Shown in pieces: positions 1 to 8,549 of a DNA stretch of 22,494 nucleotides; position 1 is the first letter of the stretch, and every line of letters begins with the position of its first letter. Source of the DNA: a virus; IMG/VR virus record IMGVR_UViG_3300009136_000039, positions 1 through 22,494 of that record, one strand, 5' to 3'. Under the pieces are notes generated by a model. That model did no database searches, was not told the DNA's origin, and saw only the letters and a list, made by a program, of their open reading frames with translations. The position numbers and the translations under genes were made by a program.

Positions 1-78
1 GGATTATATGGTATTCTACTGTTTTGGTTATTAGTCTTAACTGGTATAGTCTCCATCATGAAATGTTTCACATCCTGA
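1..78 (+). CDS. 3' end of a membrane protein (partial, cut by window edge)
   Basis: Frame 1 is open from the first base to a TGA at 76-78 and encodes 25 residues. About 19 of them are strongly hydrophobic (GLYGILLFWLLVLTGIVSIM), followed by a short polar tail with a Cys. This looks like a C-terminal transmembrane segment of a gene that starts before the window. The stop codon overlaps the GAAAGGA ribosome binding site of the next gene, which fits the tight spacing seen elsewhere. Function cannot be said: a holin-like or accessory membrane protein is possible. The fragment is short, so the frame could be open by chance. Confidence 0.5.
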   Translation, partial: GLYGILLFWLLVLTGIVSIMKCFTS

Positions 79-87
79 AAGGAACCC

Positions 88-519
88 ATGACCCCAGACC
101 AAATCATCCAACTCCGCCACCTCCTCGACCGGGCAATAGTGCGATTAAGTGTTACCGATACAGAATCCGAATGTGTTATACGTCAGGCTTACGCCCTCCT
201 CCCCTGTCCCACCTGCAACGACTCTGGGCGAGTACCTACTTTCGACCAGGCAAGCGGTTTAGCCGATGCTGACCCCTGCCCCGACTGCATTGACGGTAAA
301 ATCCTTAAAGTTATTGATGGTCATATCATTACCGCCGAGGATATTCCCTGCCCCACCTGCAACGGCACAAAAAAAATGCCGGAGTACAAAGTAGAAAATG
401 GGAAAAGTATGAGTCAGAATTGTTTACATCGGCCAGAATGTGCGATTAATACAATTAGCTCAATAAGGAAATGTACTTGTGATGGGCCTAAAGCTATGCC
501 TTGTCCTGACTGCAAATAA
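88..519 (+). CDS. DnaJ-type zinc-knuckle protein, function unknown
   Basis: 143 residues. The start is fixed by GAAAGGA at 78-84, just upstream of the ATG. The N-terminal 35 residues look helical; the rest carries repeated CxxC pairs: C40/C43 (CPTCNDSG), C64/C67 (CPDCIDG), C88/C91 (CPTCNGT), and a final pair C139/C142 at the C-terminus, plus C112, C118, C129 and C131. CPxCxGxG-like knuckles are the zinc-binding unit of DnaJ central domains, but there is no J domain, so this is not a co-chaperone by sequence. A stand-alone zinc-binding protein contacting host protein or nucleic acid is the reasonable inference. It is one of four Cys-rich small proteins in the window. A strong promoter begins three bases after its stop. 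Confidence 0.85.
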   Translation: MTPDQIIQLRHLLDRAIVRLSVTDTESECVIRQAYALLPCPTCNDSGRVPTFDQASGLADADPCPDCIDGKILKVIDGHIITAEDIPCPTCNGTKKMPEYKVENGKSMSQNCLHRPECAINTISSIRKCTCDGPKAMPCPDCK

Positions 520-522
520 CCC

Positions 523-550
523 TTGACACATTCCCCCAATCTGCTATAAT
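523..550 (+). promoter_or_regulatory. Strong sigma70-type promoter for the structured RNA
   Basis: Perfect TTGACA at 523-528 and perfect TATAAT at 545-550 with a 16-bp spacer. The predicted transcription start is near 557. The promoter sits immediately after the stop of the zinc-knuckle gene and points at the hairpin-rich segment that follows. Confidence 0.88.
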
Positions 551-556
551 GAATGG

Positions 557-668
557 TATGAAAGAACGAATGCGGTCAGGTAATCGAAATCATACACATC
601 ATACGGGACACAACCCGTGTATCAGGGGGTCGGTTGGGCTGACCGCTTCCCGGCCCCCGACTTTTTTT
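557..668 (+). ncRNA. Putative phage small structured RNA (promoter-to-terminator, about 110 nt)
   Basis: Seen: a consensus promoter ends at 550 and a terminator ends in a T-run at 662-668, leaving a transcript of about 110 nt with no ribosome binding site of its own. Three pairings can be drawn by eye: ATACGGG (601-607) with CCCGTGT (614-620, one G-U, 6-nt loop); GGGGGTCGG (625-633) with CCGGCCCCC (650-658, one G-U); and GCGGTCAG (572-579) with CTGACCGC (639-646). The last segment lies inside the loop of the second hairpin, so together they would form a pseudoknot. Inference: a phage regulatory or decoy RNA, or a 5' leader whose terminator controls the zinc protein and RepA-like gene downstream. 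I do not recognise a known RNA family. An in-frame ATG at 558 opens 44 codons, but the peptide looks unnatural. Confidence 0.6.
625..668 (+). terminator. Rho-independent terminator of the small RNA
   Basis: A 9-bp GC-rich stem (625-633 with 650-658, one G-U wobble) has a 16-nt loop and is followed after three bases by seven T at 662-668. The loop holds CTGACCGC, complementary to 572-579 upstream, so folding of the leader could influence termination. Confidence 0.8.
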
Positions 669-681
669 ACGAAAGGAAAAA

Positions 682-837
682 ATGAAAACTAAGAATCTCT
701 ATATAAGAAAGTACCTCTGCTGGCTGTTAGGCCACAACTATATCTGCCTACGTCGTTCTCACACAGCCCGAAGTGAAGTAACTGGCTGGATATGCCAACA
801 TTGTGGTAAACAACGACACGAACAGTGGGACACCTAA
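682..837 (+). CDS. 51-residue Cys/His mini-protein, DUF1660-like pattern
   Basis: An ORF of 51 codons (ATG 682, TAA 835-837) with a good GAAAGGA site at 671-677. The protein carries C13, then LLGH (H18), C22, and a CQHCG unit (C38/C41) followed by a Trp near the end. This Cys..LGH..Cys..CxxCG layout resembles small prophage zinc-ribbon proteins of the DUF1660 type; that link is from memory of the pattern. The gene lies between the terminator of the upstream RNA and the RepA-like ATPase, so its expression depends on terminator read-through or an unseen promoter. The function is unknown; a small zinc-binding accessory or host-takeover protein is an inference. Confidence 0.7.
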   Translation: MKTKNLYIRKYLCWLLGHNYICLRRSHTARSEVTGWICQHCGKQRHEQWDT

Positions 838-849
838 AATAAATCTCCT

Positions 850-1953
850 ATGGGTATAGCTAAAAAAGAAGCTGATTTTATCTGGGGCGACAAAGTTAAG
901 GTCGAGTTCATCGACTGGCTCTGGCCTAACCGCTACCCCCTCAGAATGCTCTCAATAATGGCGGGTATCGGCGGAGTCAGTAAATCCACCTTCCTTCTCT
1001 ATATGATTGCCCAAATCACGACTGGCCGGCCCTGGATAGACGACCCTCCCGGCACAACCCGAGAACCTGCCGATTGCATCCTGCTCTCCGCCGAGGATCA
1101 ACCCGGCGATATAATAATACCCCGCCTCATGGCTATGCAAGCTGACATCTCCCGGGTCTGTATCCTCAAGGGCAAAAAAATAACAATGGACGACGGCCAG
1201 GTAGGACTTGTAGGCATCGACAACCTCTCCAAAGACAAAACAGGCGACCTCGATATGCTCTTGGAAGTCCTTGATGCAGCCCCTAATCCAAAATTAGTGG
1301 GTATAGACCCCTACACCTCTTATATGGGTTCAAAAGCTGACTCCAACGACAATATAGCTATCCGCAGTTTTCTCCGACCTCTTGGCGAAATCGCAGCAGA
1401 CTACAATTTAGCCATGATAGGCATTACCCACCTCAACAAAAAAGAGGACGCTTCCGCCGATTTCCGACTCCTTGGCTCTGTAGGCCAACAAAATGCCGCC
1501 CGGATGTGTTGGCTTTTCTCTCAAGACCCTGATGCAGAAGATCGACGCTATATGGTATGGCTCAAAGGCAACCTCTGCCGCCGCAACACCGGCCTTGCCT
1601 ACCGTCTCATAAACGTCCCGGTCAAGCAGCCTGGAACCGAAAGAACAGAATTCTACTCTCAAGTCTGCCTCGAAAAAGAACCCGTCCTGCACACAGCCGC
1701 CGAACTCTTGGCCCCCAAACCCAAAAAATCCAGCTGTCCCCGCAAACAATCCGAAGCCTCCGAGTGGCTCGAATCGTTTTTATCCGAAGGCCCGGTCGAT
1801 TCCAAAATAATTTTCGAGGAAGGCGAAGCCCTCGGCTACTCTTCAGCCACTCTAAACCGAGTCAAGAAATCAATGAAAATTTTAGGTATCCCCATCCGAG
1901 ACACAGTCAACGGCAAAGTTTTACGCTGGGATTGGAGGTCACAATCGTCATAA
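850..1953 (+). CDS. RepA-like (AAA_25) hexameric replicative ATPase/helicase
   Basis: 367 residues. The RecA-like core is clear: Walker A at 39-47 (GIGGVSKST), a SAED acidic motif at 80-83, Walker B-type LVGIDPY with D153, THLNK sensor at 193-197, and the GSVGQQNAARMCWLF stretch near 209-223, which is typical of plasmid and phage RepA-type ATPases. The C-terminal 75 residues (about 295-360) look like the winged-helix tail usual in this family. Expected role: DNA unwinding or helicase loading at the phage origin, as a cytoplasmic hexamer. Odd points: the Walker A has Ser where the family has Gly before Lys (VSKST rather than VGKST), and there is no Shine-Dalgarno before the ATG. Instead, TAAAAT lies at 835-840. 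A repeat-rich gap that could be its binding site follows directly. The coding strand is strikingly C-rich and G-poor. Confidence 0.9.
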   Translation: MGIAKKEADFIWGDKVKVEFIDWLWPNRYPLRMLSIMAGIGGVSKSTFLLYMIAQITTGRPWIDDPPGTTREPADCILLSAEDQPGDIIIPRLMAMQADISRVCILKGKKITMDDGQVGLVGIDNLSKDKTGDLDMLLEVLDAAPNPKLVGIDPYTSYMGSKADSNDNIAIRSFLRPLGEIAADYNLAMIGITHLNKKEDASADFRLLGSVGQQNAARMCWLFSQDPDAEDRRYMVWLKGNLCRRNTGLAYRLINVPVKQPGTERTEFYSQVCLEKEPVLHTAAELLAPKPKKSSCPRKQSEASEWLESFLSEGPVDSKIIFEEGEALGYSSATLNRVKKSMKILGIPIRDTVNGKVLRWDWRSQSS

Positions 1954-1992
1954 CCGCTACAACCCACTTGCAGACCCCTGATACAGAAGAAT

Positions 1993-2025
1993 TGATAATC
2001 TGGTTTATTAGGCTAATAATCCAGA
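1993..2025. repeat. Near-perfect 25-bp palindrome with TGATAATCTGG half-site
   Basis: CTGGTTTATTAG (2000-2011) mirrors CTAATAATCCAG (2013-2024) around one central base with a single mismatch; T1999 and A2025 extend the pairing. The left arm overlaps the half-site TGATAATCTGG at 1993-2003, and CCAGACAATCA at 2021-2031 is a weaker inverted copy. There is no T-run after it, so it is a more likely protein-binding site than a terminator. Confidence 0.65.
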
Positions 2026-2097
2026 CAATCAGAACCCCTCCCCCCCTGCTCCGCAGGCAAAAACCGACCTCACGACCTCAAAACGGCACTTTTCTAC

Positions 2098-2126
2098 CCA
2101 GGTTATCAAACCGACTGATAATCTGG
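2098..2126. repeat. Inverted repeat of the TGATAATCTGG half-site
   Basis: CCAGGTTATCA (2098-2108) and TGATAATCTGG (2116-2126) pair over 11 bp with one G-T and a 7-nt loop. The right arm is identical to 1993-2003, so the same half-site is used twice within 135 bp. It fits a dimeric DNA-binding protein or origin iterons. Confidence 0.65.
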
Positions 2127-2187
2127 ATTCAAAGTCTATTACGAAGGGTTCTAACTATAACGAATATAACGATTATAGGAGCAAAAA

Positions 2188-2406
2188 ATGAATCCATACA
2201 GAGGCATAACCTATCCTAAGATGTTCGCTAATAAGCTGATTTGGTGGCTCTGGAGAAAGTTCATGTGCCCCCAAGAAAAACACTTACTTGATGAATGTTG
2301 GTCAGGCGAGTTCTGGTATCTATCTTGTGATGCCTGTGGCCTCGAAATCCACATCAACAAAATAGAAGAAACATATTACACCTTAAAAAAAGAAAAAAAG
2401 ACTTGA
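2188..2406 (+). CDS. Small Cys-rich protein (72 aa), unknown
   Basis: 72 residues, started by an ATG 10 bases after a TAGGAGC ribosome binding site. The N-terminal 25 residues are aromatic and basic (LIWWLWRKFMC); then come C27, H32, C37, C48 and C51 (CDACG), spaced like a mini zinc ribbon, and a Lys-rich tail. The arrangement echoes the 51-residue protein at 682, so the two may be diverged relatives flanking the RepA-like gene. Its stop codon lies inside the -35 element of the next promoter. The function is unknown. Confidence 0.7.
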   Translation: MNPYRGITYPKMFANKLIWWLWRKFMCPQEKHLLDECWSGEFWYLSCDACGLEIHINKIEETYYTLKKEKKT

Positions 2407-2431
2407 CTCCCTGCGGAGGTTGTGTTAAGAT
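2403..2431 (+). promoter_or_regulatory. Extended -10 promoter giving a leaderless or near-leaderless transcript
   Basis: TTGACT at 2403-2408, a 17-bp spacer and TAAGAT at 2426-2431, with TG at 2423-2424 forming an extended -10. The first base of the next ATG is 2438, seven bases after the -10, which is where transcription would be expected to start. The spacer contains the complete dispersed motif CCTGCGGAGG (2410-2419). Confidence 0.72.
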
Positions 2432-2437
2432 AGAACC

Positions 2438-2743
2438 ATGAAAACTGACAACAACATAATCGGGCACGTCACGGAATGCTACGCCCACAACGCCTCTCAT
2501 TGTGTCCTCTCGGTCATCTCAAACGATGACCCCAGAGCATATCACTTTTTCTACATCCCCAAGACCCCGGACGTAAGTTTTGGAGACATCATCCAAATGA
2601 ATTTTGACACAAATCAATTCCATATCTTTAAGGGTAATTCCCGACTATCCTACCGAATAATCCCTCAACCATTTCCGGGCACCCTCTTGATGGAACTAAT
2701 CCAGGAACACATGAACAGAGAGGAACAACCTCCGCAGGGTTAA
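2438..2743 (+). CDS. Hypothetical protein, 101 aa, leaderless start likely
   Basis: The ATG at 2438 coincides with the predicted transcription start and has no Shine-Dalgarno sequence, so translation from a leaderless mRNA is inferred. The protein has a compact beta-rich look (GHVTECYAHNASHCVLSVI; YHFFYIP; SFGDIIQMNF), similar to small OB or cold-shock-sized proteins, but I cannot assign a family. It ends with PPQG, encoded by a copy of the dispersed CCTCCGCAGG motif (2729-2738), so the motif supplies its C-terminus. The next gene follows after 15 bases. Confidence 0.72.
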   Translation: MKTDNNIIGHVTECYAHNASHCVLSVISNDDPRAYHFFYIPKTPDVSFGDIIQMNFDTNQFHIFKGNSRLSYRIIPQPFPGTLLMELIQEHMNREEQPPQG

Positions 2744-2758
2744 ATAAGGGAACCAGAA

Positions 2759-3175
2759 ATGAACAAAAACGTACACTTTATGTCGTCACGATCTGATTGG
2801 ACAACCCCAGCAGACCTTCTTAAAGAACTGAATACTGAGTTCCTCTTTTCATTTGACCCCTGTCCTACCAATCCCACTTTCGATGGTCTCAACTGCGAAT
2901 GGGGTTATAGTAATTTTTGTAATCCTCCTTATGGCCGTCAAATAACGGCCTGGATAAAAAAGGGTTACGAAGAAAGTCTTAAAGGAAAACTCGTTGTATT
3001 CCTGATTCCCTCCAGAACGGATACCCGCTGGTGGCACGACTACATTATGAAAGCAGACGAGATTCGTTTTATCAGAGGTCGTCTAAAATTCGGTGGGGCC
3101 AAAAACTCTGCCCCCTTCCCAAGTTGCATAGCCGTATTTCGAGGAACCAAAAATGAAAAAACGAGGAATAATTAG
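2759..3175 (+). CDS. Phage DNA N6-adenine methyltransferase (Dam type)
   Basis: 138 residues. The start is supported by AAGGGA a few bases upstream. SSRSDWTTPADLL near the N-terminus, SFDPCP (31-36) and CNPPYG (54-59) are the hallmark motifs of the phage Dam family (PF05869). NPPY is the catalytic motif that positions the target adenine amino group, and the cofactor would be S-adenosylmethionine. The conserved WIKKGYEES and LIPSRTDTRWWHDYI blocks also match. It is somewhat short for the family (usually about 150-180 residues), but both ends look natural. The likely role is methylating phage DNA against host restriction or marking replication. The next gene overlaps it by 23 bases. Confidence 0.88.
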   Translation: MNKNVHFMSSRSDWTTPADLLKELNTEFLFSFDPCPTNPTFDGLNCEWGYSNFCNPPYGRQITAWIKKGYEESLKGKLVVFLIPSRTDTRWWHDYIMKADEIRFIRGRLKFGGAKNSAPFPSCIAVFRGTKNEKTRNN

Positions 3176-3857
3176 GTCATACTCTACTGGCCCCTACAAC
3201 AAAATGAACGACACCGAACAGTGGATACGCATATCCCAAGGATGTCCAAATTGTTGTCCATTCTGCTACGAACCTTCTGAGATGCTTGAATTTCATATTC
3301 CTAAAATAGAGCGAAATCTTGTCAAGATAATGGATATGAATCTACTGTCTCAGGCAACTGCTCTTGAGAGAATTGAACGGCTTGGGGCTGTAAGGGTAAA
3401 CAATAAGGTTGTCCACTACGAACTCGTATGTGGGATAGATCACCGATTTCTTACCATCATTCTTGCGAAAGCTCTCAAGTTCTCCCGATTCCAGAAAATT
3501 CGATTGGCGTGGGATTTTGCATACTTCGACCAGTTTAGAATCAGAAAAGCCCTGAAATTACTAATGGACTCTTGGTATAAACCTCGGGATATAACTGTCT
3601 TTATGATTTGCAACTGGGAAATCTCCTATGAGGAATGTCTCAAGAAATTGTATTTGTGTGCGATATGGTCAGTGAAAGTGGCTGATTGTTATTTCGATGG
3701 GCAGCTTTCCCCAAACATAGAACCTATCGGCTGGACAGCAGAGCAGATAAAAGATTTTCGCAAACGAGTCCGAAAGCATAATCAACTCGTGAATTTTGGA
3801 ATTGACCCCGAGCTAAAAAAACCACTTGAAACATCTCCGAAATCTGATATAATATAG
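3153..3857 (+). CDS. Phage radical SAM protein
   Basis: 234 residues with the cluster motif CPNCCPFC (C31, C35, C38; CxxxCxxC), which binds a [4Fe-4S] cluster and S-adenosylmethionine. The block QWIRISQGCPNCCPFCYEP is the usual N-terminal signature of a set of short phage radical SAM proteins. The barrel appears compact, about 200 residues after the motif, with no obvious second cluster or SPASM domain. The substrate is unknown; tRNA, peptide or nucleotide modification are all open. The start (ATG after GAGGAAC) lies within the end of the methyltransferase gene, implying co-translation. From here on, the + strand shifts from C-rich to G-rich. Its 3' end contains the promoter of the next gene. 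Confidence 0.8.
   Translation: MKKRGIIRSYSTGPYNKMNDTEQWIRISQGCPNCCPFCYEPSEMLEFHIPKIERNLVKIMDMNLLSQATALERIERLGAVRVNNKVVHYELVCGIDHRFLTIILAKALKFSRFQKIRLAWDFAYFDQFRIRKALKLLMDSWYKPRDITVFMICNWEISYEECLKKLYLCAIWSVKVADCYFDGQLSPNIEPIGWTAEQIKDFRKRVRKHNQLVNFGIDPELKKPLETSPKSDII
3826..3853 (+). promoter_or_regulatory. Promoter for the HTH/SLOG/terminase gene group
   Basis: TTGAAA at 3826-3831, a 16-bp spacer and perfect TATAAT at 3848-3853, with TG at 3845-3846 (extended -10). It lies inside the last codons of the radical SAM gene. The predicted start near 3860 leaves a leader of about 14 bases holding the GAAAGGA site. Confidence 0.78.
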
Positions 3858-4680: not shown

Positions 4681-4932
4681 ATGAGAATGCCAAACGAAAA
4701 CGAAAATTTAGTCGGTAAAGTCTGTGTCTGTTCTGTAGGTCGTCCATTTATCGTGACTGGGACAAAAGACGATTTCGACTTTGCACCAAGCGTGAAATTT
4801 TGGACGGGACTTGGCCTTGATGGAAAAGGTACAGCGTGTAGTTCTGTTCCCTGCATCATAGCTGAAACCGGTCAGGAATTCCACGACACATTGGTGAAAC
4901 GGTTCGGCGGAAAGATGTCCTACAATGCCTAA
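4681..4932 (+). CDS. Hypothetical protein, 83 aa
   Basis: The ATG at 4681 is preceded by a GAAAGGGA site; a second in-frame ATG at 4687 is also possible. The protein begins with a charged stretch and then has a beta-rich core (GKVCVCSVGRPFIVTG; FWTGLGLDGKGTACSS) ending in a short helix (GQEFHDTLVKRFGGK). The G-KV-V-GRPF-VTG pattern looks like a small SH3- or OB-type barrel, but the function is unknown. It overlaps the next gene by 8 bases. Confidence 0.72.
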   Translation: MRMPNENENLVGKVCVCSVGRPFIVTGTKDDFDFAPSVKFWTGLGLDGKGTACSSVPCIIAETGQEFHDTLVKRFGGKMSYNA

Positions 4933-5638
4933 TGAAATTGAAAAACCAGAACAGCCGAGTCACGATGATGTGTTGGCGGCTATAACGAGTTTTAATGACC
5001 CCACTATCATCACGAATATGTTTCGTGAACTCGGCTGGTCTTATTCGGTGGAGATTAAGGAGACGCTTGTACTCGCCAAACAGAATGCGAATCTTTCGAT
5101 TAAGTTCAAGGCTATAAAGCACTTGCGAGAACTGTTGCGGGAAGCTGCTGAGACGGCGGGATATACGGCACAGGTGTCCCAGACCATGCCGAATGTTCAA
5201 GGGGGTCACACCACGTTCCATGCCAAACGCATCACCAATATTCTGAACCCGACAAAACAAATAGAATCTTCTATTAAGGAAACTCAAAATGACAAAAAAG
5301 AAACCCGAACCGAACCCAATCGAGACCGCGATAGGGGACAGAGCCAAAGACCCGAAAGCACACGAGAAATTCACGAAAGAATACCAGACGGAGCCGATTC
5401 CCCAGGACCCATCCGAGATACCGGGCGAGCCTTCGCCCCAAGAAGTCTTGACTCTGGAGGAACTGAACCGCAGAACGGAGGAGAGACTCCAAGAGGAACC
5501 GTCCCCAGAAGTAAAAACAGCGATTCTGGAGACTCAAATTCCTTATGTTCCTCCGAAGAAGGAAATCCCTGTATCCAAACCCGCCCCCCAACCTGTGACC
5601 GAGACCTCTTCCCTGGGGTCGCCTCCGCAGAAGATTGA
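4925..5638 (+). CDS. Putative terminase small subunit-like protein; 3' third overlaps another gene
   Basis: 237 codons are open. The first 100 residues look like a real folded protein: helical segments (DVLAAITSFNDPTIITNMF; SIKFKAIKHLRELLREAAE) of the sort found in small proteins encoded upstream of large terminases. From its position and helix pattern I infer a small-terminase role, which would recognise phage DNA for packaging; this is not proven. From about residue 122 to the end the protein becomes low-complexity (R, E, P, S, D) and the DNA is shared with a second frame that starts at 5289 with its own ribosome binding site. Either both frames are used, or the true function needs only the N-terminal part and the tail is a consequence of the other gene's composition. 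Confidence 0.68.
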   Translation: MPNEIEKPEQPSHDDVLAAITSFNDPTIITNMFRELGWSYSVEIKETLVLAKQNANLSIKFKAIKHLRELLREAAETAGYTAQVSQTMPNVQGGHTTFHAKRITNILNPTKQIESSIKETQNDKKETRTEPNRDRDRGQSQRPESTREIHERIPDGADSPGPIRDTGRAFAPRSLDSGGTEPQNGGETPRGTVPRSKNSDSGDSNSLCSSEEGNPCIQTRPPTCDRDLFPGVASAED

Positions 5639-6146
5639 GGAAATAGACGAGTATTCTGACGCTGAAAAAAGTCCAACATTAGCGGGTATAGCAGAGTCGT
5701 TGGGCCGGAAAATGAACGAAGCACAAAAAGGAGTTGCTCCAACGGTTTCTGGTATTAATAAAATGATAAAAGAAAACCCCGAGATGTTCTCGCCCACCCC
5801 TGCGGAGGATGTTGAACTTACGGCCCTGAAAAAATATGTTCTGGAGGATGGGTTTGTGCTGGCCACCGTCGCCTTTCATATAGTCTCTTTGTGTGCTGAA
5901 CCCTTGACGACTCCTTCGACTACGACTTGGGATTTTGCGGACAGAGCCTCGATACCTGATATGGTCTTGGCTCTTCTGAATCAGCCCGGCTATCTTGAGG
6001 GCATCTGGCCAAGTCTAAAAATCGTGATGGGAACAAATGTTGGTAACTCGGCATGGACAGCAGGAATAGCCACCACCATAGCTTTCTTCGATGTCATCCG
6101 CACCCTCCCCGCCATTGTGGAGTTGAAAAATGAAACAAAGTCATGA
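5289..6146 (+). CDS. Pro/Glu-rich protein with C-terminal folded domain, unknown
   Basis: 285 residues. An AAGGA site lies 9 bases before the ATG. Residues 1-125 are disordered-looking and rich in P, E, K and T (EPSPQEV, PVSKPAPQPV). Residues about 130-180 are helical, and the last 100 residues form a hydrophobic domain (DGFVLATVAFHIVSLCAEPL; TAGIATTIAFFDVIRTLPAI) that may touch a membrane or bury a helix bundle. The first 350 bases overlap the preceding gene in another frame. It lies between the small-terminase candidate and the large terminase, so a packaging or head-assembly accessory role is possible, but I recognise no family. Two copies of the dispersed motif (5623-5630 and 5800-5807) fall in it, encoding PPQ and PAED. 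Confidence 0.75.
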   Translation: MTKKKPEPNPIETAIGDRAKDPKAHEKFTKEYQTEPIPQDPSEIPGEPSPQEVLTLEELNRRTEERLQEEPSPEVKTAILETQIPYVPPKKEIPVSKPAPQPVTETSSLGSPPQKIEEIDEYSDAEKSPTLAGIAESLGRKMNEAQKGVAPTVSGINKMIKENPEMFSPTPAEDVELTALKKYVLEDGFVLATVAFHIVSLCAEPLTTPSTTTWDFADRASIPDMVLALLNQPGYLEGIWPSLKIVMGTNVGNSAWTAGIATTIAFFDVIRTLPAIVELKNETKS

Positions 6147-8133: not shown

Positions 8134-8234
8134 TGATAATATTTACAGTGAAGATTTTGGTTCTTATCTTATTTGTCGGGTATATCCTATTCAGGATAAA
8201 GGCCATTATTAAGAAACATATTGACAAAAAGTGA
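8133..8234 (+). CDS. 33-residue single-span membrane peptide
   Basis: The ATG overlaps the terminase stop by one base. The peptide has one long hydrophobic stretch (FTVKILVLILFVGYILF) followed by a basic tail (RIKAIIKKHIDKK), giving an N-out, C-in single-span membrane peptide by the positive-inside rule. The size and charge resemble tiny phage membrane proteins, but no family is recognised. Its last codons overlap the promoter at 8221. The case rests on the start-stop coupling and coherent membrane composition. Confidence 0.55.
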   Translation: MIIFTVKILVLILFVGYILFRIKAIIKKHIDKK

Positions 8235-8248
8235 GATTGTGGTATAAT
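8221..8248 (+). promoter_or_regulatory. Internal strong promoter within the head module
   Basis: Perfect TTGACA (8221-8226), a 16-bp spacer and perfect TATAAT (8243-8248). Transcription would start near 8255, just at the GAAAGGA site of the next gene. It probably lifts expression of portal, scaffold and capsid genes above that of the terminase. Confidence 0.85.
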
Positions 8249-8267: not shown

Positions 8268-8549
8268 ATGGATAATTTGACCTATATATTACTCGTTTTT
8301 ATCGGGATTCTTGTATTAGAATCATTTGCTCATTCAAGAACTATACTTAAACTTACCAGCCAACTTATAGAGGTTAATAAGCAACTTTTGATTGTCGTGG
8401 CCGGGAAAGACTCAAAACCTGAGACCTTAAGGGCTTTAGTGGCATCTGCTAAACCTCCGCAGGGTAAGCTCAAAGGGATTGCTGGTGGGAAGAAGAAAGA
8501 TGATAAAACCAAAAATACCGATTACATAATGGAGGTCGGAGTCCACTAA
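8268..8549 (+). CDS. Small membrane-anchored protein, 93 aa
   Basis: The start is fixed by GAAAGGA at 8255-8261. Residues about 5-20 (TYILLVFIGILVLESF) are an N-terminal membrane anchor. A short helix follows (LKLTSQLIEVNKQLLIVVAG), then a Lys/Gly-rich flexible tail (PPQGKLKGIAGGKKKDD). The PPQG is encoded by a dispersed-motif copy at 8454-8463. It sits directly downstream of its own promoter and overlaps the portal start by one base. The role is unknown; a spanin- or holin-like accessory, or a membrane-docked assembly factor, are possible. Confidence 0.72.
   Translation: MDNLTYILLVFIGILVLESFAHSRTILKLTSQLIEVNKQLLIVVAGKDSKPETLRALVASAKPPQGKLKGIAGGKKKDDKTKNTDYIMEVGVH

Follow-up and report, generated by a model that had tools for sequence, protein, structure and literature searches.

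The DNA analyzed here, referred to as the window, is a stretch of 22,494 nucleotides of viral sequence. Ahead of a gene for a RepA/DnaB-like ATPase it carries a compact predicted transcription unit with the following features.

523 to 550, plus strand: sigma-70-type promoter TTGACA-16-TATAAT, with -35 at 523-528, -10 at 545-550 and TGC before the -10
557 to 668, plus strand: predicted RNA of about 109-112 nt, its start placed 7 nt past the -10; the covariance model matches
558 to 572, plus strand: 5' segment containing two in-frame AUGs, AUG558 where the RNA is predicted to start and AUG570 just 5' of P1; a possible start of a leader ORF
572 to 579, plus strand: 5' strand of helix P1, GCGGUCAG, partner of 639-646
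580 to 600, plus strand: J1, a conserved unpaired linker including AAUCAUACACAUC
601 to 620, plus strand: hairpin H2 with an ACACAA loop, stem 601-607/614-620 of 7 bp, one being U-G
625 to 633, plus strand: 5' arm of the terminator, GGGGGUCGG
639 to 646, plus strand: 3' strand of P1, CUGACCGC, inside the terminator loop
650 to 668, plus strand: 3' arm of the terminator, CCGGCCCCC, and T-tract (T662-668)
673 to 684, plus strand: Shine-Dalgarno sequence AAGGA and ATG of the next ORF (51 aa, 682-837), the ATG 23 nt past the terminator stem
850 to 1953, plus strand: AAA_25 ATPase (RepA/DnaB-like), located 3' of the element in all phages carrying it

The promoter matches the consensus in 12 of 12 positions and is the sole perfect one that a promoter scan retrieved within positions 1-3000. 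The 5' end of the RNA was placed according to this promoter, and its extent according to promoter and terminator together. The intrinsic terminator combines a stem of 9 bp (625-633/650-658) with a loop of 16 nt and was missed by a simple terminator scan, as the latter permits loops of 3-8 nt only. The long-range pairing P1, 572-579 with 639-646, consists of eight Watson-Crick pairs out of eight. A preliminary description had pointed out the perfect promoter, the terminator, a 7-bp hairpin between the two and the 8-bp complement reaching into the terminator loop, and had held that the ensemble fits no recognized RNA family. All of these features were recovered, the complement covaries in relatives, and Rfam 15 gave no match for the element in the window at the gathering score, nor at E<=5. 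Seven loci of relatives searched against Rfam likewise gave no match apart from one unrelated tRNA. Folding of positions 558-668 yielded z = -2.0, and 0.95% of shuffled terminator loops pair equally well with the 5' region. Taken singly, the window sequence is only suggestive of a structured RNA, and it is the comparative evidence that decides.

Several other genes of the window deserve mention. Positions 88-519 encode a protein of 143 aa in which zinc-ribbon-like CPTC/CPDC motifs recur and which matches nothing in Pfam or PHROG; partial relatives of it lie directly upstream of the RNA in the related loci L002, L045 and L059. A gene for a Dam-type adenine methyltransferase (2759-3172) overlaps a radical-SAM-like gene (3153-3857), for which several kin phages show about 80-85% identity. 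The terminase gene is immediately preceded by two ORFs on the same strand, 4925-5638 (237 aa) and 5289-6146 (285 aa), which share 350 nt in different frames. Conservation in nine kin phages, at about 41-58% identity, extends both to the C-terminal portion of the former ORF and to the N-terminal portion of the latter, and the two look like a conserved overlapping gene pair. Between terminase and the next long ORF, at 8221-8248, a second perfect 12/12 TTGACA-16-TATAAT promoter stands directly 5' of an ORF at 8268; it has no structured leader.

Relatives were collected by two protein searches. The ATPase led to L002 (86% identity), in which this element again lies 5' of the same ATPase gene with an unrelated small ORF in between. 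The terminase led to 20 kin loci with 78-89% identity, and an alignment of terminases reached more distant kin. A first covariance model, built from three sequences and with E-values that are rough owing to a short calibration, detected the element in the window, L002/L062, L054 and L055, L059, L045/L061, L063, L051/L065 and L071. Including the window these are ten contigs (nine besides it) with eight distinct sequences, each record having a single copy; a second covariance model, based on these members, returned the identical set and no further convincing match. The comparative set is thus one of eight distinct sequences from one clade of uncultured phages. All eight have the promoter, with 11-12 of 12 matches and invariably a 16-bp spacer, and all eight keep H2 with its CACA loop, the terminator stem and the P1 helix from the terminator loop to the upstream strand. 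The predicted length of the RNA across the group is about 105-135 nt.

DNA and peptide similarity searches of annotated phages and plasmids gave no real match, and none of the 35 matches to a gapped pattern in 84,980 genomes, inspected singly, had the terminator or the P1 complement. The element is absent from the relatives of the 51-aa neighbor ORF (L003-L007) and from farther terminase kin without this ATPase, namely L088, L089, L091 and the 52-kb record L093, the first three being short. Loci that lack this ATPase also lack the RNA; note that L046 and L053 end inside the ATPase gene and are uninformative on the presence of the RNA. No copy of the terminase turned up in 930 genomes searched from three sampled phyla, a sampling that says little on the host.

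As evidenced by the alignment of the eight distinct sequences, the three helices are maintained while their sequences change. Standard pairs occupy 94% of the pair cells against 84% in shuffles, in an alignment that was fitted to the model and is biased by construction towards terminator and hairpin, P1 lying outside the model with the pseudoknot added afterwards. Eight of 22 pairs have changed on both sides, where 3.9 were expected and none of 500 shuffles reached as many. Sliding the register by 1-3 columns in either direction reduced the standard pairs to 35-55% in all six cases. RNAalifold, applied to a plain MAFFT alignment, recovered P1 and the hairpin unprompted. P1 is 7-8 bp long and occurs in four sequence types, GCGGUCAG/CUGACCGC, GCGGACA/UGUCCGC, AAGCGGU/ACCGCUU and AAGGUGGA/UCCGCCUU, each fully paired within its own RNA; when strands are swapped between types of equal length, 2 of 7 or 4-5 of 8 pairs are left, so that the exchange mostly fails. 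For L061 and L065 taken singly the shuffle control of P1 is weak (about 0.2) because their 5' regions are long, and the support for P1 in these two lies in its aligned position and exact complementarity. In H2 a compensatory change leads from CGGG/CCCG to UGGC/GCCA, and the loop, ACACAA in the window, is UCACAG or CCACAA in relatives.

As all inner branches of a terminase tree of the members are open, the independence of these changes was judged from the combinations of helix types instead. Both P1 types (U-A and A-U) co-occur with both H2 types, so that, barring recombination, the double changes did not arise in a single joint event. The covariance search in related phages that the preliminary description had proposed revealed compensating changes in all three pairings among the eight distinct sequences. 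The relatives alter the sequence and keep the pairings, the reverse of what that description had named as evidence against the RNA. From these comparisons the element is very probably a real conserved regulatory RNA, with three helices including a pseudoknot maintained by compensating mutations.

The best-kept unpaired parts are the J1 motif AAU(C/U)AU(A/G)C and the CACA hairpin loop, and J1 measures exactly 21 nt in six of the eight members. The terminator loop contributes 3-15 nt before the 3' strand of P1 and 0-4 nt after it, lengths that would suit a pseudoknot coexisting with the terminator stem, the helices being able to stack as in ordinary H-type pseudoknots. An antisense promoter within J1 was sought, and one weak 9/12 site, apparently unconserved, was found. 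The long-form members (L059 1650-1735, L061 1778-1847, L065 1639-1708) have an extra 5' arm, AGCGGAG, near the RNA start, which is a further possible partner of the terminator loop; in L065 it can pair there beside P1, without replacing it.

The genomic position of the RNA is as constant as its helices. It shares its strand with the AAA_25 ATPase gene and precedes that gene in all phages that carry it, even where the ATPase is only 35-40% identical (L054/L051), and promoter and intrinsic terminator are in line with that gene. The next start codon follows the terminator stem at 18-23 nt in all eight members despite differing next ORFs, and a Shine-Dalgarno sequence follows the T-tract in all of them. 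In L054, L051/L065 and L071 the next gene is the ATPase itself, with its start codon 18-21 nt past the stem; elsewhere an unrelated small ORF sits between RNA and ATPase. In the window this is the 51-aa ORF with a C-terminal CxxCGKxxH motif, whose relatives were found at 53-69% identity in five further phage contigs, L003-L007; as the close kin lack it, it probably is a mobile small gene. The suggestion that the RNA is a leader for this zinc protein finds no support, as the ORF is replaced by unrelated ORFs or missing in relatives. Promoter scans of the three loci in which the ATPase is the next gene found no other forward promoter between terminator and ATPase start; with no such promoter or room for one, transcription of the ATPase gene has to proceed through the terminator.

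This arrangement is most simply read as cis-acting. We consider it about an even chance that the element is the structured leader of an early or replication operon and acts as a transcription attenuator. Its basis in the sequence is the promoter, the three helices with their covariation, and the fixed position and spacing; production of the RNA, partial and regulated termination, and an effect of events at the 5' end on P1 are inferred. RNA polymerase would start at the strong promoter and synthesize the 5' strand of P1, J1, H2 and then the terminator, whose loop could pair back to P1 over 7-8 bp to form the pseudoknot, with P1 possibly stacked on the terminator stem. Most transcripts would stop there as an RNA of 105-135 nt, and the fraction reading through would reach the Shine-Dalgarno sequence that directly follows the T-tract, allowing expression of the next ORF and the AAA ATPase. 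Events in the 5' part, such as ribosome entry at the conserved AUG or the binding of a factor to J1 or to the CACA loop, might alter P1 and hence termination. In favor of this reading, no comparable leader accompanies the second perfect promoter at 8221. Several points weigh against this reading. The pseudoknot alone leaves the terminator unopposed; a conserved antiterminator was not found, and the best candidate for one pairs worse than shuffles. RNA and ATPase sequences do not co-diverge (L054) and so give no hint of a cognate ligand, and in a compact phage genome any gene could come to lie soon after the terminator of an sRNA.

An alternative that we rate as somewhat unlikely is a free-standing sRNA of the phage that would act in trans. 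In this RNA, stabilized by terminator and pseudoknot, the unpaired J1 (AAUCAUACACAUCAAA) and the CACA loop might serve for base pairing with host mRNAs or as a binding site for a host protein, the downstream genes being served by leaky read-through. The combination of a near-consensus promoter with a strong terminator in all eight members is consistent with such an RNA, as are its high identity between phages with strongly different ATPases and the behavior of J1, the best-conserved unpaired stretch, which avoids the terminator arm relative to shuffles as a seed or protein site might. Against it, complementarity to the phages' own sequences is not clearly above shuffles across members, a stronger case in L063 not being shared, and neither the place before the ATPase nor the spacing from terminator to start codon ever varies. 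Nothing points to lysogenic immunity; a PF00589 integrase was found in none of eight kin records, several of which are fragments. The preliminary description had left the choice between a stand-alone RNA and an attenuating leader. Given that the RNA always sits ahead of the ATPase operon and keeps a fixed spacing from terminator to start codon, the attenuating leader fits better and the free sRNA is less favored.

A specific form of the attenuator, whose probability overlaps with that of the general reading, couples it to translation: a ribosome starting at the conserved AUG would cover the 5' strand of P1, run into the terminator and block both pseudoknot and terminator, so that read-through would report the supply of ribosomes. 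In the five short forms the predicted RNA has an AUG at its first or second base and another, in the same frame, just 5' of P1, with distances from AUG to P1 of 8, 14 or 17 nt, all 2 mod 3. The short forms would thus be leaderless, while in the three long forms the AUG stands behind a Shine-Dalgarno-like stretch; in total all eight members have an AUG at or near the 5' strand of P1. The frame runs uninterrupted through the whole terminator stem in seven members and stops within the terminator loop in the eighth, both alternative frames contain stops in almost every member, and several leader ORFs terminate at the next start codon. On the other side, the leader peptide is unconserved and one-base indels shift the frame between members, so that only the act of translation could matter. 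Eight related sequences are too small a set, the frame counts take no account of kinship, and the length pattern could also be due to chance. We regard this form as rather unlikely.

A riboswitch-like mechanism is quite improbable. Here P1 would close a nested hairpin while J1 (AAUC..RC) pairs with the 5' arm of the terminator (GU..GGUU) in a mutually exclusive antiterminator. This helix, P2, was proposed by RNAalifold on the unbiased alignment, RNAs cut before the 3' arm of the terminator fold mostly around P1, and folds with P1 and with the terminator lie within about 4 kcal/mol of each other. However, shuffles were at least as strong as the pairing of J1 with the terminator arm in 2000 of 2000 and 1963 of 2000 cases in the two controls, a single column pair covaries, and weakly so, and the predicted folds vary between members. 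With its pairing below that of nearly all shuffles, P2 is largely refuted, and as a hypothesis drawn from these sequences, ribosome entry would be more attractive as relief of termination than a helix competing for the terminator arm. A short protein-coding gene (MKERMRSGNxNHTH...RGSVxLTAxRPP) that mimics RNA conservation, suggested by a frame that is open in the window and L002 and by few, synonymous changes in the first eight codons, was rejected as extremely unlikely in view of the covariation between distant strands, the frame shifts among members, the stop in L054 and the lack of a match in annotated phages or plasmids.

Within the attenuator reading, we tentatively propose a leader switch of the phage in which a terminator-locking pseudoknot would face competition, at the 5' end, from ribosome entry or from a host factor. 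Without a classical antiterminator, such a switch would turn on the replication operon only when the host translates; we hold this specific version to be rather unlikely. The element adds to the uncultured phage clade an RNA family supported by covariation in which a pseudoknot strand lies inside the loop of an intrinsic terminator. Should read-through be regulated, a replication operon would be controlled through the stop signal itself and not by a repressor or a classical antiterminator, and the element is small enough for direct testing with reporters or by transcription in vitro.

The succession of promoter, structured leader and terminator just 5' of the Shine-Dalgarno sequence of an operon is the common layout of attenuator leaders, be they trp-type or the expression platforms of riboswitches. 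The phage element differs from these in that no conserved antiterminator was found, that a conserved pseudoknot ties the terminator loop to the 5' part, and that it belongs to no Rfam class. The CI RNA of phage P4 and the c4 RNA of phage P1 arise from leader termination that limits a phage replication operon, and act as antisense RNAs in lysogens. The position as a leader RNA and the termination before a replication operon are shared with them, whereas the element has no Rfam match, no target within the phage above chance and no integrase in the eight kin records, several being fragments. preQ1-II riboswitches are three-stem pseudoknots, of the H-type with an embedded hairpin. The present RNA resembles them in this architecture, but it has no Rfam match and one stem of its pseudoknot is the terminator itself. 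The concept of the three-stem pseudoknot is treated in PMC11262651. A pseudoknot RNA with a terminator before a gene is also found in type III toxin-antitoxin systems (ToxI, and its phage mimic, PMC3475682); in contrast to their repeated units there is one copy here, and the next ORF varies, with no conserved gene of the ToxN-like toxin type. In T4 and RB69, gp32 is described as repressing its own translation via a pseudoknot operator in the gene 32 mRNA (PMC535899), the likeness being that in both cases the 5' leader of a phage replication gene contains a pseudoknot. Autoregulation by the ATPase is not indicated for the present element, since the protein diverges to 35% (35-40% in L054/L051) while the RNA is kept, and unlike the gene 32 operator the pseudoknot here includes the transcription terminator.
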